This document shows, piece by piece, positions 33,656 through 39,767 of a stretch of 64,000 nucleotides of DNA (position 1 is its first letter; each line of letters starts with the position of its first letter). The notes below the pieces were generated by a model that had not been told where the DNA came from, made no database searches, and was given only the letters and a program-made list of their open reading frames with translations. The stretch is from Chryseobacterium sp. MYb264 (GTDB lineage Bacteria > Bacteroidota > Bacteroidia > Flavobacteriales > Weeksellaceae), in the NCBI RefSeq assembly GCF_035974275.1, contig NZ_CP142422.1, positions 4,774,001 to 4,838,000 of the forward strand, given 5' to 3'. A program made the position numbers and the translations under genes.

Positions 33656-34840
33656 TTAAATACTGTACCCTTTTTTCTTAGCCAGCTCCAGCACTGAATT
33701 TTCAATTGCTTTTCCAAGGTCGTCAGCCTCCGGGTTGCCTCTTTTTTTCATTTCCGTATCAATATAACCCTGTCTTTTTTTAGAAAGCACTTCAATTTCT
33801 TTCTGAATCTGGCCCCGTTGTGCTGATTTTTCAGCCACCGCCTTTTTGATTTCTTCTTTACTTTTACCTTTCAGATCAGCAGGAAGTTCACTTTCTTTGA
33901 CCTTTGAAATAAAATCAGCATCTTTTTCAGCCCGGTCTACCAGATCCCAGTGATCATTTTTGTAAGCATTTTTCCGGGATTTTGCTACTGTTCTCTCTAC
34001 GGAACTCGACGCAGATTGAACTTCAGCATTTTTATCCTGAACCATTTGTTTGTTCTTATATTCTGAGCCACGGCTTCCGTAATAGACATACGTATCGTTT
34101 AATTTTGAATTGTATTCAGAAATTTTTACATCGTAAGGAGTCTCAATATAAATTACTTTTTTATCACTGTCGATATTAAAATATTTTCCGTCACCAATAG
34201 TAGCGCCACTTTGCCAGAAACTTTGAATTCCTTCACTTCTGTCGCCGCAGAAAATGGTGTTGGTATAAATATTTTTAGATTTAGCCTTAGAAATGGTTTC
34301 TTTATAATTGATTCTTCCCTGATCGAAAGGTTCATTTCCCGCAATATAAATCAGTTTCATGCTTTTTTCATTGCCGTCCCAGTTGAGATTCATTGAGGCA
34401 TCTCGAATAACGGCACCACAATATTCACTTCCACCATTGGTTTTTAAAGCGAATAATTTTTCGGAAACCAGATCCAGATCCTGCGTTAATGGAGTTACCT
34501 GTCGGATAAAATTTTCGTCCTGAAGCCCGTCGTTCCCGTATTCATACAGGGCAATTTCCACTTGTGGAGCTTTTCCGTTGTATTTTAAGGTGGTTAAAGT
34601 ATTCACAATATTCCAGAGTCTGGATTTTGCCTGATCGATCAGTCCGTCCATGCTGTTGGAGGTATCCAGAAGCAAAGCCACCTGAATTTTATTCTCTTTG
34701 CTGACGGTTCCTGAGGGAGCATCATTCTGAACGATCGTTTTTGGATGTAATGGTTTTCCGCAACTTCTGATCGGTGAGCTTTGGGCACTTAAAAATGCAG
34801 TAGCTCCCAATGTTAATGTTAAGAATTTAATTATGGTCAT
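33656..34840 (-). CDS. Exported von Willebrand A domain protein
   Basis: 394 residues. Signal peptide (TLTLGATAFLSAQ), then a vWA domain from about residue 50. MIDAS motif is DTSNSMDG, and EYGNDG, TNGGSEYCG and YIAGNEPFDQG follow, with conserved cysteines in the second half. The C-terminal third (about 290-394) is charged and helical. vWA domains bind partners through a metal ion, so it is probably a periplasmic or surface adaptor. It lies 13 bp downstream of the SIMPL gene and forms one operon with it. Confidence 0.85.
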   Translation of the reverse strand: MTIIKFLTLTLGATAFLSAQSSPIRSCGKPLHPKTIVQNDAPSGTVSKENKIQVALLLDTSNSMDGLIDQAKSRLWNIVNTLTTLKYNGKAPQVEIALYEYGNDGLQDENFIRQVTPLTQDLDLVSEKLFALKTNGGSEYCGAVIRDASMNLNWDGNEKSMKLIYIAGNEPFDQGRINYKETISKAKSKNIYTNTIFCGDRSEGIQSFWQSGATIGDGKYFNIDSDKKVIYIETPYDVKISEYNSKLNDTYVYYGSRGSEYKNKQMVQDKNAEVQSASSSVERTVAKSRKNAYKNDHWDLVDRAEKDADFISKVKESELPADLKGKSKEEIKKAVAEKSAQRGQIQKEIEVLSKKRQGYIDTEMKKRGNPEADDLGKAIENSVLELAKKKGYSI

Positions 34841-34853
34841 GATCTTATGTTTT

Positions 34854-35531
34854 TTAAAGGATTTCGTATTTCGTTTTAATACTGTACTTCAGCTTGATAT
34901 TTTCGATATTATCAAAAGAATAATCAACGCCTGCGTCTGCGGCTTCCATTTGAACATTGCTCACTCTCACAGATTTGTAGGCTTTTGGCAAAATCATGTC
35001 ACTTGTATAATCTTCAATTTCTGTGATCTCAAGCGGAGTTCCCACTTTCTTACCGATGCTTTCCAAGAGATAATCTGCTTTTTCTTTGGCTGCTTTTAAG
35101 GCATTAATTTTTACTGTTTTTCTAAAATCTGCAATTTTGGTATTCTTAATTTCAGCAATGTTGATGTTGTTTACCCATTTCTGATTAAGATTTTCAAACA
35201 GGTTTCCCATATCGGTGGTCTTGCTTACTTTAAACTGAAAACTTTTCGTGAAAATTTTAGTTTTAGAGTAAATATTCTGATACATCGACTGGAATTTGAT
35301 GTCTTCATTTTTCACCCCGTTTTTCTTTAGGGTTTCAAACAGTGATTTCTCATTGTCGGCTAATTGGTTTTTATTATCTCCCTTAATACCAACGTTGAAA
35401 ATAATTTCATCCGGTTCTACTTCCATTTCAGCAACGCCTGTTACTTCGATTGCATTTCTTTTGATTTCCTGAGCTTGTGTAAAGCGTCCTAAAGTCAATA
35501 ATCCGATTATTAAAAAATGTCTCAATTTCAT
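34854..35531 (-). CDS. SIMPL-domain (DUF541) periplasmic protein
   Basis: 225 residues with a signal peptide ending in TQAQ. The SIMPL fold is shown by IEVTGVAEMEVEPDEIIFNVG at the N-terminus (first 20 residues) and the later ALKAAKEKADYLLESIGKK and GTPLEITEIED. DUF541 proteins form periplasmic oligomers (BP26-like); their role is poorly defined, with links to oxidative stress. First gene of the SIMPL-vWA operon, preceded by the putative LytTR-type site at 35600-35629. Confidence 0.87.
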   Translation of the reverse strand: MKLRHFLIIGLLTLGRFTQAQEIKRNAIEVTGVAEMEVEPDEIIFNVGIKGDNKNQLADNEKSLFETLKKNGVKNEDIKFQSMYQNIYSKTKIFTKSFQFKVSKTTDMGNLFENLNQKWVNNINIAEIKNTKIADFRKTVKINALKAAKEKADYLLESIGKKVGTPLEITEIEDYTSDMILPKAYKSVRVSNVQMEAADAGVDYSFDNIENIKLKYSIKTKYEIL

Positions 35532-35560: not shown

Positions 35561-35576
35561 GGAGTAAAATTACTCC
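35561..35576. promoter_or_regulatory. Palindrome over the probable SIMPL promoter
   Basis: GGAGTAA-AA-TTACTCC. On the minus strand it contains TAATTTTA, an imperfect -7 element (35572-35565), 27 bp from the repeat site. It could be a repressor site at the start of transcription. Confidence 0.4.
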
Positions 35577-35599: not shown

Positions 35600-35629
35600 A
35601 CTTGGTGAAATCTGGGTTTCACTTGGTGA
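35600..35629. promoter_or_regulatory. Candidate LytTR-type operator, copy 1 (SIMPL-vWA operon)
   Basis: Direct repeats ACTTGGTGA at 35600-35608 and 35621-35629, 21-bp period. The 30-bp site also contains GTGAAA/TTTCAC in inverted orientation. Nearly the same 30 bp occurs at 36299-36328. It lies 27 bp upstream of a -7-like element of the SIMPL gene. Confidence 0.6.
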
Positions 35630-35658
35630 GCTTGAGTTTTTGCAGAATATTTGAATGA

Positions 35659-35797
35659 CCGGCTGAAACCCCTAGCCCCGATTGCAGCGGATACCCCGCA
35701 ACTGGGTTGGAGGGTTTGAGAGAAGGAGGGTTTAGAAGTGGAGAGCGTTGGCGAGCTTTGGGGTGAGGAGTATGAGCGGAAAGCGGGAGTAAGCTCC
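35659..35797. repeat. GC-rich intergenic module
   Basis: Markedly GC- and purine-rich compared with its surroundings (cctagccccgattgcagcgg, gggttggagggtttgaga, gcggaaagcgggag). I recall similar sequences between genes of other flavobacteria, suggesting a dispersed family. CTCCCGCTTT in its complement also occurs at about 38970. No protein is evident. Confidence 0.45.
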
Positions 35798-35807
35798 AAA
35801 TAAAAAA

Positions 35808-35829
35808 AAACAGTTCAAATGAACTGTTT
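35808..35829 (-). terminator. Terminator of the small lipoprotein gene
   Basis: AACAGTTCA/TGAACTGTT overlapping the stop codon; on the minus strand it is followed by a run of T's (35801-35810 read in complement). Confidence 0.8.
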
Positions 35830-36181
35830 ATCGGTTGGTAAGAAGGATAGATCTGCCGTTTCGGGTGGTGAGCTTTTTCTCTTCTGAAAATAATTTTGTC
35901 CTTATAATAAGCCGGTCTTCATGCTCGGAAATGGTATAAGTATTAGAGGTAAAAAGCGCATCATCTATAGAATGTTCAAACAATTTCGTGGAATCTGACT
36001 CTATAACAGAATAGAAATCTACTTTATAATCATCAATTCCTGTCTGATAATACTTGTAAATAATCTTTTCGTTCAGGTCGCTCGAAATAATTTTGGTTTC
36101 GATGAAATTGCTCTGTTCCAGGAAAGAACAGCTTTGCAGTAGTAATGCAGGAAATAATAAAAGGTAAAAATGTTTTTTCAT
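35828..36181 (-). CDS. Small lipoprotein of unknown function
   Basis: 117 residues from ATG 36181. Signal peptide MKKHFYLLLFPALLLQSC gives lipobox LLQSC with Cys at residue 18. The mature part is polar and beta-rich (IIYKYYQTGIDDYKVDFYSV) with no recognised domain. Divergent from the LytS-like kinase gene, sharing a 187-bp control region that contains the repeat site at 36299. A perfect -7 element lies 17 bp from the start. It could belong to the same regulon. Confidence 0.7.
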   Translation of the reverse strand: MKKHFYLLLFPALLLQSCSFLEQSNFIETKIISSDLNEKIIYKYYQTGIDDYKVDFYSVIESDSTKLFEHSIDDALFTSNTYTISEHEDRLIIRTKLFSEEKKLTTRNGRSILLTNR

Positions 36182-36198
36182 AGTGATTTTGGTTTTAT

Positions 36199-36206
36199 CA
36201 AATGTA
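36199..36206 (-). promoter_or_regulatory. -7 element of the lipoprotein gene at 35828
   Basis: TACATTTG on the minus strand, matching TAnnTTTG, 17 bp before ATG 36181. No suitably spaced TTG was found. Confidence 0.5.
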
Positions 36207-36298
36207 ATCAATGTTAAAGAGCTGACTGTTAACAGAATTTCAATTAATATTAAGATTCTGTCACCAACTTACGCTATGATGAGAAGATCGTGTCATCC

Positions 36299-36328
36299 AC
36301 TTGGTGAACGTCTGATTTCACTTGGTGA
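36299..36328. promoter_or_regulatory. Candidate LytTR-type operator, copy 2 (kinase/LytTR operon)
   Basis: ACTTGGTGA at 36299-36307 and 36320-36328, 21-bp period, with GTGAA/TTTCAC inverted inside. A further reversed half-site, TCACCAACT, is at 36261-36269. The site ends 28 bp before the -7 element of the kinase gene, the same spacing as at the SIMPL operon. LytTR regulators bind 9-bp direct repeats separated by about 12 bp, which is this layout. Confidence 0.65.
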
Positions 36329-36356: not shown

Positions 36357-36364
36357 TATCTTTG
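36357..36364 (+). promoter_or_regulatory. -7 element of the LytS-like kinase gene
   Basis: TATCTTTG, four bases before ATG 36369. The 15-mer TATCTTTGTTGTATG is identical to that at the esterase start (20888-20874, minus strand). Confidence 0.6.
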
Positions 36365-36368
36365 TTGT

Positions 36369-38159
36369 ATGAAAAGGGTCGCATTTTTTATCGTGTTTTT
36401 CTTTTTGTCTGGGAATATTGTATATGCTCAAATGGAGAAGCCTGTCGAAGACATCCAGAAACAGTCTGTAAAGCTGCGAAAAGCTGTGGATTCAAGGGAT
36501 GAATCTGCACAGGCCAATTCTTATTACAGTATCGGCGAAACATTCTTTAATGATGGAAATTTTCAGAAAAGCGAGGAGTATTACACGAAAGCGAAAAATA
36601 TTTATGAGAAAATTAATGACAAACCGAATATTGAAAAAGTAAGCAGGAAATTAGCTCAATCTCAGGAAAAGCAGAATAAAATTACGCCGGCTATCAGCAA
36701 TTACAACCGCGCCGCACGGGTAGGTTCATCGAGAAGCAAAAGTAAAGCAGTCAACTCTAATGATGTGGCAAGACTTTCCACAAGTTCTCCCGAAGCTAAA
36801 GAAGAAGCGATTTTAAGCAATATTCAATTGAATGAAAACGAAAAGGATAAAGGTGATCTGGCGGCAAGTTACAGCCAGATGGCAGATGTAAATATTCAGC
36901 AGAATAATATTCCTAAAGCGGAGTCCAATCTCAACAATGCCTATGAGATTTCAAAAAAAGAGGCTCCAACGCAAGCCTTGGAAATTAATAAGAAACTGAC
37001 CGACTTTTATATTGAAAATAAAAAATTCGACAAAGCAATTGAAGCAAAAAAGACAGTTTTAAAGGAAGATTTCGTTAAAGAAAATTCTAAAAAAGAGGTT
37101 GAACAAATTCAAGAGTTAGCAGATATTTATATTAAAAAAAATGATCCCCAGGAAGCCATTGATTTATTAAAAAAATCCTACGGAATCGCGTTGGAAAAAG
37201 GGCATACTTTGGAAGCTCAGAAAAGTGTAAAAAAATTAGACAGCCTTTATAATGTTTCTGAAAATACAGATGCTTCGGTGAAATTATATCGTGATTTTTT
37301 AGGAAAGTTGCCAGATTTGGTTTCAAAAGATAAAAGTCTGGTCGATGAAAAAATCTTGGAAGATACCGAACAGAGAATCGCCCAATTAGAAAAGGAAAAG
37401 CAATTAAAAGATGAATTGATTCGTAAGAAAAATGTCTTTAACTACAGTTTAATTTTTGCATTAATTATTCTGATTGGATTAATAATTTTCATTTTCAGAA
37501 CCTTGAAAAAAGTTCAGATCAAGAATAAAAAAATTGCGTTGCAATCGCTTCGCCGTGAGATGAATCCGCATTTTATTTTTAACAGCTTAAATTCTGTCAA
37601 TCATTTTATTGCGACGAATAACGAACTGGAAGCCAATCAATATTTAACCAGATTTTCAAAGTTAATGCGTGGTGTCATGGAAAATTCTACGGAAGATTTC
37701 ATTCCATTTCAGCAGGAATTAGATTTGCTTCAAAACTATTTAGCATTGGAAAAAACGCGCTTCGCGGATAAATTTGATTTTGAAATTGATGTGGATGAAT
37801 CTTTAAATACTCAAAGTCTAAAAGTTCCCGGAATGCTGGTACAGCCATTTCTCGAAAACGCAATCTGGCACGGACTTCGTTACAGAACAAACAAAGGATT
37901 TTTGAAACTGAATTTCGAAAAACAGGAGCAATTTTTAAAAATTACGATTGAAGATAACGGAATCGGAATTGAGGAAAGCAAAAAACAAAAAACAGAACAT
38001 CAAAAAGCCAGAAAGGGTCGCGGAATGAAAAATACGCTGGAAAGAATTGCTTTGCTGAATGATTTGTATAAGCAGGAAATTCAATGTAAAATCACTGATA
38101 AAAAAGATGCACAAGGTGTTCTTGTTGAAGTACGTTATAAAGCGATTAATAATCTATAA
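36369..38159 (+). CDS. LytS/YehU-like sensor histidine kinase with TPR sensor region
   Basis: About 596 residues from ATG 36369, where a signal peptide begins (MKRVAFFIVFFFLSGNIVYA); the long upstream frame overlaps promoter elements. TPR-type helical repeats occupy about 25-340, a coiled coil leads to one membrane segment (about 360-380), and the cytoplasmic kinase follows. His_kinase motif: REMNPHFIFNSLNSVNHF with the phosphoacceptor His. ATPase: QPFLENAIWHGLRYR and IEDNGIGIEES. It pairs with the LytTR regulator 50 bp downstream. The signal is unknown; TPRs suggest protein binding in the periplasm. Confidence 0.92.
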   Translation: MKRVAFFIVFFFLSGNIVYAQMEKPVEDIQKQSVKLRKAVDSRDESAQANSYYSIGETFFNDGNFQKSEEYYTKAKNIYEKINDKPNIEKVSRKLAQSQEKQNKITPAISNYNRAARVGSSRSKSKAVNSNDVARLSTSSPEAKEEAILSNIQLNENEKDKGDLAASYSQMADVNIQQNNIPKAESNLNNAYEISKKEAPTQALEINKKLTDFYIENKKFDKAIEAKKTVLKEDFVKENSKKEVEQIQELADIYIKKNDPQEAIDLLKKSYGIALEKGHTLEAQKSVKKLDSLYNVSENTDASVKLYRDFLGKLPDLVSKDKSLVDEKILEDTEQRIAQLEKEKQLKDELIRKKNVFNYSLIFALIILIGLIIFIFRTLKKVQIKNKKIALQSLRREMNPHFIFNSLNSVNHFIATNNELEANQYLTRFSKLMRGVMENSTEDFIPFQQELDLLQNYLALEKTRFADKFDFEIDVDESLNTQSLKVPGMLVQPFLENAIWHGLRYRTNKGFLKLNFEKQEQFLKITIEDNGIGIEESKKQKTEHQKARKGRGMKNTLERIALLNDLYKQEIQCKITDKKDAQGVLVEVRYKAINNL

Positions 38160-38208: not shown

Positions 38209-38943
38209 ATGAAAATAAAAGCCGTAATCGTAGACGACGAAGTCATTGCAAGAGATGTTTTGAGGAATTATCTCACAAAATATTGTCCGCAGGTTGAGAT
38301 TTTGGGTGAAGCTGAAAACATTAAGGAAGCCGTTCCTCTGATCGCGGAAAAACAACCTCAATTGGTTTTTTTAGATGTGGAAATGCCTTTCGGAAACGCA
38401 TTTGATGTTTTGGAAGCAACGAAAGATTTTTCTTACGAAACCATTTTCATTACGGCGTTTTCGCAATATTCTTTGCAGGCTTTGAACAAATCGGCGAGTT
38501 ATTATATTTTAAAACCCATCGATATTCAGGAACTGATTTTGGCGGTCAATAAAGTTGCCGAAAGTTTAGAAAATAAAGAAGAACTCAACAGAAATAAAAT
38601 TCTCCTTGAAAATTTAAAGTTAAAACCTGAAAAACAACAGTTAATTCTTCCAACATTACAAGGTTTTGATGTCGTGAAAACTGAAGATATTATGCGACTT
38701 CAGGCTGATGGAAATTTCACACAAGTTTATCTGACAGACGGTTCAAAGAAAATGGTCTGCCGATTTTTAAAGCATTTTGATGACTTGCTGGAAAACCCTT
38801 TTGTGAGAGTTCACCGTTCGCATATCATCAATACCAATTTTGTGAAATCGTACCATAAAAGCGGAACGGCAACCCTTTCTGATAACACCGAAATCGAAGT
38901 TTCCGGAAGTTTCAAAGATAATTTCCTGAAAGTTTTTTCTTAA
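38209..38943 (+). CDS. LytTR response regulator
   Basis: 244 residues. Receiver (1-120): VIVDDE acidic pair, phosphoacceptor Asp in LVFLDVEMPFG (about residue 57) and Lys in YYILKPID. LytTR DNA-binding domain (about 140-244): EDIMRLQADGNFTQVYLTDG and FVRVHRSHIINTNFV. LytTR proteins bind 9-bp direct repeats; the matching repeats at 36299 and 35600 are its likely sites, implying autoregulation and control of the SIMPL-vWA operon. Second gene of the kinase operon. Confidence 0.93.
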   Translation: MKIKAVIVDDEVIARDVLRNYLTKYCPQVEILGEAENIKEAVPLIAEKQPQLVFLDVEMPFGNAFDVLEATKDFSYETIFITAFSQYSLQALNKSASYYILKPIDIQELILAVNKVAESLENKEELNRNKILLENLKLKPEKQQLILPTLQGFDVVKTEDIMRLQADGNFTQVYLTDGSKKMVCRFLKHFDDLLENPFVRVHRSHIINTNFVKSYHKSGTATLSDNTEIEVSGSFKDNFLKVFS

Positions 38944-38948
38944 TTTTT

Positions 38949-39018
38949 GGGCAGCTTTTTCCGCCTTCCGCTCCCGCTTTTTTGTTTCACAAAAAGAGCT
39001 CCGCTCAAGTCGGGCTGC
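38949..39018. repeat. GC-rich hairpin module after the LytTR gene
   Basis: GGGCAGC near 38949 and CGGGCTGC ending at 39018 bracket a CTTTTTGT-TTC-ACAAAAAG hairpin and ttccgctcccgctttt. Probably the operon terminator. I recall related sequences at many flavobacterial gene ends. A further repeat-like phrase (gcgaactta...ttagcgcc...gcgtta) follows at 39097-39152. Confidence 0.45.
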
Positions 39019-39227
39019 AACGATTCGACATTAAAAGCATAGGTTTTCCAAGAAAATTAGAGATAATACTTAGTGATCTTATTTAAGTGAAACGCCTTTG
39101 CGAACTTAGAAAAGTTTAGTAGTCAAAAAAATCTTAGCGCCCATTGCGTTAAAAACAAAAGAGTTTTAGCAAAAAATTAAGGCATCATTTTTGAACTTTT
39201 CAGACCAATTACACAAAATATTCTATT

Positions 39228-39767
39228 ATGAAAACCCTTCAAAAAATAGCAATTCCCATTTCTTTGGGTGTTTTAGGACTTATTATTTTCAATTCATGTT
39301 CAGTGGGGATTCCAAAAGGAGCAACGGCAGTTCAAAATTTTAATTCAGAAAAATATCTCGGAAGATGGTACGAAATTGCCCGTTTCGACTATAGATTCGA
39401 GAAAAATATGGATAACGTAACCGCAACATATTCTAAAAATCCGAATGGAACTATTCGTGTTGATAATAAAGGCTATAATTACGTTAAAAAAGAATGGAAA
39501 GAATCTATTGGAGAAGCGAAATTTGTAAACGAACCAACTGAAGCCAGATTAAAAGTTTCTTTTTTTAAACCTATTTGGGCAGGCTACAATGTGATTGATA
39601 TTGATGAAGACTATCAATATGCTTTGGTAGTCGGAAACAGCACTAAATATATCTGGATTTTATCCCGTACAAAAGAAATTCCTGAAAGTATTAAACAGCG
39701 ATTTTTAGAAAAAGCGAAGAATATTGGGTATAAAACAGAGGATTTGATTTGGGTGAAACATGATTAG
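39228..39767 (+). CDS. blc: Outer-membrane lipocalin (Blc family)
   Basis: 179 residues. Lipobox IIFNSC with Cys near residue 24, so a lipoprotein. Lipocalin signature KYLGRWYEIARFDYRFEKNM (GxW motif) and later ALVVGNSTKYIWILSRT with the conserved closing R. Blc-type lipocalins bind lysophospholipids or fatty acids during envelope stress. Monocistronic, with a terminator at 39785. Confidence 0.93.
   Translation: MKTLQKIAIPISLGVLGLIIFNSCSVGIPKGATAVQNFNSEKYLGRWYEIARFDYRFEKNMDNVTATYSKNPNGTIRVDNKGYNYVKKEWKESIGEAKFVNEPTEARLKVSFFKPIWAGYNVIDIDEDYQYALVVGNSTKYIWILSRTKEIPESIKQRFLEKAKNIGYKTEDLIWVKHD

Follow-up and report, generated by a model that had tools for sequence, protein, structure and literature searches.

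The window analysed here, a stretch of 64,000 nucleotides from Chryseobacterium sp. MYb264, contains two copies of a 30-bp direct-repeat site 699 bp apart, one upstream of an exported SIMPL-vWA gene pair and the other upstream of a kinase-LytTR operon. The genes and elements of the locus are the following:

33656..34840, minus strand: vWA protein, 394 aa (PF00092 above cut-off), directly downstream of the SIMPL gene
34854..35531, minus strand: exported SIMPL (DUF541) protein, 225 aa (Pfam PF04402, E 1.4e-21; signal sequence recognized by eye)
35565-35572, minus strand: TAATTTTA, -7-like element of the SIMPL promoter; the left edge of site 1 is 27 bp away
35600..35629, plus strand: site 1, putative operator, exact ACTTGGTGA-N12-ACTTGGTGA, upstream of SIMPL-vWA and on the strand opposite to SIMPL
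35831-36181 (ATG at 36181), minus strand: small lipoprotein-like gene between the two sites, without Pfam match
36299..36328, plus strand: site 2, putative operator, exact ACTTGGTGA-N12-ACTTGGTGA, upstream of the kinase-LytTR operon and on its own strand
36357-36364, plus strand: TATCTTTG, -7 element of the kinase operon; the right edge of site 2 is 28 bp away
36369..38159, plus strand: sensor histidine kinase with TPRs, 596 aa (above cut-off: PF06580, PF13424; below cut-off: PF02518)
38209..38943, plus strand: LytTR response regulator, 244 aa (PF00072, 60.1 bits, cut-off 30.2; PF04397, 46.5 bits, cut-off 22.6)
39228-39767, plus strand: lipocalin gene, to the right of the LytTR gene

The kinase consists of a signal sequence, TPRs, one transmembrane segment, and His_kinase and HATPase_c parts (signal sequence and membrane segment recognized by eye), and its PF06580 score of 76.3 bits against a cut-off of 25.2 places a LytS-type His_kinase sensor in the same operon as the regulator, which starts 49 bp after the kinase stop on the same strand. 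The regulator possesses both a receiver domain and a LytTR DNA-binding domain, and its orthologues in the genus are 90-98% identical among the matches listed, a listing that is partly sampled. A search of solved structures with the regulator returned mainly receiver-domain matches, the three alignments listed covering receiver domains only. LytTR proteins found in a phage search were only distant relatives (<60% identity), and a plasmid search gave no match to the operator region. In many relatives a lipocalin gene likewise lies 3' of the LytTR gene, without a site of its own.

The original prediction had reported two 30-bp sites with a period of 21 bp, and this was confirmed exactly at both places. 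The letters read ACTTGGTGAAATCTGGGTTTCACTTGGTGA at 35600-35629 and ACTTGGTGAACGTCTGATTTCACTTGGTGA at 36299-36328, and each site shows two direct repeats of 9 bp with about 12 bp between them, the layout expected of an operator for LytTR regulators. Nothing besides these two exact sites was found when the whole window was searched for ACTTGGTGA-N12-ACTTGGTGA at up to 3 mismatches, for which the chance expectation is 0.03 (100 dinucleotide shuffles). Throughout the genome (5,234,367 bases), CTTGGTGA-N13-CTTGGTGA matched only the window sites at fewer than 2 mismatches, and at up to 3 mismatches it gave 40 matches vs 32 with the reversed pattern; the 31-bp pattern ACTTGGTGAA-N7-TTT-N-ACTTGGTGAA at up to 3 mismatches recovered exactly the two window sites, with 0 matches for its reversed control. 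Good matches are few, two in this genome and 1-5 copies per matching genome of the genus, and the site is not scattered over many unrelated places. The intergenic region also carries CCCTAGCCCCGATTGCAGCGG at 35670-35690, a dispersed repeat with 26 copies in the genome at up to 2 mismatches (reversed control 0), which sits in a G+C-rich stretch at 35660-35800; a stretch resembling the latter was seen by eye at about 38955-39020.

The anatomy of the site was derived from an alignment of 200 sites from 79 loci, 194 from the genus and 6 from other genera. The conserved block consists of ACTTGGTGAA at positions 1-10, TTT[C/G] at 18-21 and ACTTGGTGAA again at 22-31, while spacer positions 11-17, at 0.09-0.34 bit, are not conserved. 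The direct repeat proposed earlier is therefore real, but its core is the 10-bp ACTTGGTGAA. Of the two spacer matches that had been pointed out, TTTC reflects the conserved TTT[C/G] before the second half-site, and TCTG is a matter of chance, since it is offset by one base between the window sites and falls within the unconserved part of the spacer. A called gene start follows 187 of the 200 sites; another 12 have none within 200 bp and one lies inside a called gene, which is at least partly an effect of ORF calling. These data bear on the view that the sites play no part in regulation and belong to a repeat that is dispersed or was duplicated locally, as two near-identical copies 699 bp apart and the presence of a dispersed intergenic repeat in the same region could suggest. 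Against it stand the low copy number given above, the position of the 187 sites, mostly before the same few genes at a set distance and on a set strand, and the constancy of the half-sites while spacer positions vary. Moreover, the sequences flanking the two window sites resemble each other no more than shuffled sequences do. Duplication of operator and promoters as a block was accordingly rejected, the score of the forward flanks lying below the shuffle mean (reached by 295 of 300 shuffles) and that of the reverse flanks being reached by 57 of 300. A repeat without function is thus extremely improbable.

Position and strand were counted in 79 regions of about 10-20 kb each from 76 genomes of the genus, the window included, which were hand-chosen from genus listings. 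A gene was counted if it was above identity thresholds and its alignment started within the first 30 residues, and a site if it had up to 3 mismatches and lay within 260 bp of the gene start. Among genes passing these filters, the conservation of the site upstream of orthologues was complete: it precedes the kinase gene in 74/74 cases, always on the same strand, and the SIMPL gene in 72/72, always on the opposite strand. The opposite strand was also the rule, where a site was present, for genes encoding a MuiA-like DUF4139 protein (35/36 with an upstream site), a 321-aa SIMPL-domain protein (12/15), a 309-aa SIMPL-domain protein (3/3) and a 191-aa protein without Pfam match (12/12). A site of their own, always in the opposite orientation, precedes 10 of 62 vWA genes; in the mapped loci, most of the remaining vWA genes follow a SIMPL or DUF4139 gene. 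The window SIMPL gene is a putative regulon member, and the window vWA gene is one through the SIMPL operon; the MuiA-like DUF4139 protein, other SIMPL proteins, vWA proteins and the 191-aa protein are likely further targets. The core of the local regulon that had been proposed, with one site common to the TPR-kinase/LytTR and SIMPL-vWA genes, is therefore supported, although the regulon is wider and extends to DUF4139 and other SIMPL genes.

Not every neighbour of a site is a target. The suggestion that the lipoprotein gene at 35828 might be one is not supported, as its -7-like element, TAAGTTGG at gap 27, is found only in this genome, and the three other loci of the set with this gene beside the site have no -7 box. 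An amidohydrolase gene that lies beside the site in some relatives is probably not a target either: none of 13 has a -7 box at gap 26-28, and it is from these 13 that the general point follows.

The promoters have a fixed geometry relative to the site. In Bacteroidetes the -7 box is TAnnTTTG at -12 to -5, and its final G is near-invariant (PMC6847099). Boxes of this kind usually lie 27-30 bp from the site, on either side, and the earlier observation of a -7 element 27-28 bp from the site edge was reproduced at both window sites, with TAATTTTA at 27 and TATCTTTG at 28. Among kinase promoters with a site-to-ATG gap of 40-41, TATCTTTG was present in 49/49 at gap 28 or 29, its first base exactly 12 nt before the kinase ATG in all 49 relatives, an arrangement by which transcription should start at the AUG. 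The window kinase promoter is not among the 49 because the start call fell on an ATG further upstream in the same frame; inspection by eye shows this box at gap 28 there too, ending 4 nt before the ATG at 36369. From this spacing the kinase-LytTR mRNA is predicted to be leaderless, with the A of the ATG at 36369 as +1; leaderless mRNAs make up 5.5% of the mRNAs of F. psychrophilum (PMC9723704). TAnnTTTG stands at 28/29 in 51 of the 58 sites that were classed as kinase sites, and the remaining seven (loci L112, L129, L130, L132, L139, L141 and L170) have TACTTTGC at gap 30, with the called ATG 89-170 bp away and hence a longer leader. TACTTTGC agrees with TAnnTTGY, which has been reported from F. 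psychrophilum as the box of what is probably an alternative sigma factor (PMC9723704), and these loci have possibly undergone a sigma-factor switch.

On the target side (gap 55-70 to the gene start), 133 of 137 promoters have a -7-like box at gap 27 or 28; of the four without it, two belong to DUF4139 genes, where a single base is changed, and two to amidohydrolase genes. By these box gaps, 51/58 at kinase and 133/137 at target promoters, the site lies directly upstream of the core promoter, as expected of a LytTR operator. SIMPL upstream regions have TAATTTTA at gap 27 in 65/69 cases, and the SIMPL transcription start in the window is predicted at about 35560. The target box is mostly TAATTTTA at SIMPL, DUF4139 and vWA promoters, where it lacks the near-invariant final G, and mostly TAAGTTTG at the 321-aa, 309-aa and 191-aa genes; at SIMPL and DUF4139 promoters it is followed by a conserved ACTtcAGAA. 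An inverted repeat over the SIMPL -7 box, GGAGTAA-TT-TTACTCC, was considered and set aside, being unconserved outside its TAATTTTAC core in the consensus and among the rows listed.

The distance from the site centre (position 16, midway through the 31-bp repeat block) to the first box base is 43-44 bp on both sides in the main classes, and this equality bears on why the site is flipped relative to the SIMPL gene. The flip had been tentatively attributed to a symmetric inner element (GTGAAA/TTTCAC), an explanation that is not supported, since the spacing has its point of symmetry at the centre of the direct repeat and not at that of an inner dyad. A dyad GTGAA/TTTCAC centred at 14.5 predicts a target-side -7 box about 2 bp further from the site edge, but the gaps, 28/29 towards the kinase and 27/28 towards the target, are equal about position 16; moreover, the dyad's A at position 11 occurs in only 50% of sites. 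The flip would be explained instead by one operator serving divergent promoters. A -7 box is found on both sides of 40 of the 200 sites (34 scored as kinase sites and 6 others), so that a single site often faces two promoters, and in two genomes (G172 and G076) one site lies between divergent kinase and SIMPL-type genes.

The same geometry helps to decide the sign of regulation. The LytTR regulator might bind this same operator as a repressor, blocking polymerase or looping DNA from near -41 to -70 until the kinase signals. Repressive autoregulation is generally common, and the kinase promoter, with its consensus -7 box and an upstream TTTTTG stretch, may not need an activator. Nevertheless, at promoters with a called box the site is clear of box and start and lies upstream of the core promoter, a position described for the binding of LytTR activators (PMC6193735, PMC4227749), and the SIMPL, DUF4139 and vWA promoters mostly have TAATTTTA without the near-invariant final G (PMC6847099), as would be expected of weak promoters that depend on an activator. 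Repression is therefore unlikely, and activation is the preferred reading, with which the sub-consensus -7 box of the targets is in keeping.

Of 80 related loci, 78 come from relatives named as Chryseobacterium and the other two from relatives named only to family level. Of the 173 genomes of this genus, 163 contain the site with no more than 1 mismatch, and the reversed control gave 0 in every genome. The kinase was found in 165 of the 173 (E 1e-60), and 163 of these have the site at that stringency; the two others (G106 and G107) have copies with 2-3 mismatches at the expected places. In the 8 kinase-less genomes the site was found in none, even when the 31-bp pattern was allowed up to 3 mismatches, a setting at which the reversed control gave one match in one of the 8. 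Nor was a SIMPL orthologue found in them at E 1e-20; their best regulator relatives are at most 38% identical, and in two of the 8 there is none at E 1e-20. The absence of the system from these 8 genomes may represent few independent events. A search at E 1e-75 found no regulator in three genomes with kinase and sites (G021, G129 and G136), two of the assemblies being <76% complete and one being in 370 contigs. Some copies of the system appear damaged: the kinase gene has one in-frame stop in each of G106, G077, G078 and G167, and in G145 (locus L126, 7304-10098) a deletion has apparently taken the starts of the SIMPL and kinase genes with their promoters, the regulator has an internal stop, and one site is left, before DUF4139.

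Sites are also found far from the regulator. The kinase site and the SIMPL-vWA site of G004 are 2.0 Mb apart on the same 3.46-Mb contig, the kinase and target sites of G030 are 209 kb apart, and in both genomes both sites have been kept; G076 has a second site 18.6 kb off, before DUF4139. In G247, from another genus with a 77% identical regulator, there is no site in front of the kinase operon, and autoregulation is therefore not universal. Its single match to the 31-bp pattern is perfect and lies on another contig, reversed, before a DUF4139 orthologue whose promoter has TAATTTTG at gap 27, with the called ATG 150 bp away. Distant sites of this kind favour action in trans over a local repeat.

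Regulator orthologues (E 1e-75) were found in 167 of 320 genomes of the family, namely 162/173 of the genus and 5/147 of other genera. In three of these 5 genomes (G240, G289 and G290), both kinase and target genes are preceded by the site as known from the genus, in some cases with 1-3 mismatches. In G184, whose regulator is 65% identical, the 31-bp pattern detected no consensus site, and an exact 12-bp direct repeat GAATGGGTAAAT with a period of 21 lies between vWA and kinase. At the level of the order, 395 genomes were sampled, and the regulator was detected (E 1e-62) in 69. The family does not include 32 of these 69; loci were fetched from 20 of the 32 and scored with a weight matrix built from the 194 Chryseobacterium sites. 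For one genus (g35; regulators 67-70% identical), 12 of the 15 loci found were fetched, and all 12 have a site scoring at least 22, on the strand of the kinase in 12/12. A genome of a third family (G520), with a 47% identical regulator, has a site with exact repeats between vWA and kinase that scores 40.3, and two further loci outside the family score 15.8 and 11.8; the reversed-sequence control in those 15 loci was never above -0.7.

The remaining five of the 20 loci gave background scores, and each has a TTYACT-type pair with a 21-bp period in reversed orientation, 57-105 bp before vWA or SIMPL. With this pattern, which was devised after some of these sequences had been inspected, 22 loci searched at periods 14-30 gave 11 matches at 21, 7 at 30 and 0-2 elsewhere; the reversed control gave 0 in the same 22 loci. 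The period-30 matches (L121, L123, L271-L290) are probably some tandem repeat. Judged from these sequences, the site recurs in other families, and its half-site varies where the regulator has diverged. Regulator residues 170, 184 and 185 (F, C and R) are invariant with GGTGA-type sites in the aligned set and differ in the five regulators with TTYACT-type (AGTRA) sites. Eight other positions, mostly outside the DNA-binding domain, vary alike, and the three residues are candidate specificity residues as a lead only, since the pattern possibly reflects one or two evolutionary events.

This distribution also bears on the identity of the DNA-binding protein. Another protein, encoded elsewhere in all these genomes, might bind the site, with the LytTR gene merely a co-regulated neighbour; neighbourhood by itself is no proof of binding, and the half-site TCACTTGGTGA is partly palindromic, which makes another fold conceivable. 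However, the site is missing in all 8 genomes without the kinase and a close regulator, the repeat length and spacer are a hallmark of LytTR regulators (PMC6193735), and the half-site differs in clades with a diverged regulator. A different binder is accordingly very unlikely.

The sequence, conservation, orientation and spacing of the sites and their co-occurrence with the system are direct observations, from which we infer binding by regulator 38209, activation over repression, the phosphorelay and its signal. Very probably, the two window sites are one and the same operator of regulator 38209, which is phosphorylated by the kinase, binds as a dimer and activates transcription in both directions. 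In the proposed mechanism, the periplasmic TPR sensor kinase (36369) would phosphorylate the regulator (38209), a dimer of which would occupy two 10-bp half-sites ACTTGGTGAA placed 21 bp, or two helical turns, apart. From an operator centred near -55 (about -41 to -70), it would activate transcription. At site 2 it would provide feedback on the kinase-regulator operon, and at site 1 it would switch on the exported SIMPL-vWA pair, as well as other SIMPL and MuiA-like DUF4139 genes in relatives. An envelope signal is plausible given the signal sequence, TPRs, single membrane segment and cytoplasmic kinase domain of the sensor. A broader generalization is, on balance, probable: that a polar direct-repeat operator of fixed strand drives both promoters equally, forward for the mostly leaderless kinase message and reversed for the exported SIMPL, DUF4139 and vWA proteins, in more than one family of the order, with a half-site that changes with the regulator.

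For a LytTR two-component system of the Bacteroidetes, the analysis provides an operator sequence, the geometry of the promoters and a list of targets. It joins SIMPL/DUF541, MuiA-like DUF4139 and vWA proteins, which are exported and whose role is not known, in one signalled response, so that their function becomes testable via one regulator. The strand rule and the equal spacing offer a natural test of the contact between a LytTR dimer and RNA polymerase with the direct repeat reversed. In the open-access literature, covered by titles and abstract openings and missing most subscription journals, no description of the motif, of its Bacteroidetes context or of the SIMPL/DUF4139/vWA target set was found.

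The architecture and the site type are already known for LytTR regulators. They bind 9-bp direct repeats, as the original prediction had noted; the spacer between the repeats is 12 bp in most cases, and the promoter follows directly (PMC6193735). The streptococcal HdrRM and BrsRM systems, as described there, share with the present one a LytTR regulator, two 9-bp direct repeats with mostly a 12-bp spacer, a promoter-proximal position and autoregulation. Their partner, however, is an inhibitory membrane protein, whereas here it is a histidine kinase, so that the present pair is not a LytTR Regulatory System in the sense of that source; their half-sites resemble ACCACTTAT (PMC6193735), and the Bacteroidetes promoter type and the SIMPL/DUF4139/vWA targets set the present system apart. 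E. coli YpdB is described as a LytTR regulator acting on a direct repeat (PMC4847170), as proposed here, but YpdB and BtsR differ from the present system, in which the kinase has TPRs and both motif and targets are other ones. The best NCBIfam match of regulator 38209 is the BtsR model, at 101.7 against a cut-off of 246, and the regulator is therefore not a member of that family; its score against the LytR equivalog is 93.5, below the cut-off of 375. The least ordinary part of the system is its strict strand rule. In agr of S. aureus, promoters P2 and P3 are divergent. AgrA, also a LytTR factor, binds direct repeats between them, the promoter-proximal repeats being centred near -60 (PMC4227749), close to the value near -55 of the pair described here. 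AgrA has separate sites for P2 and P3 (PMC4227749), whereas a single pair of fixed strand apparently serves both promoters here.
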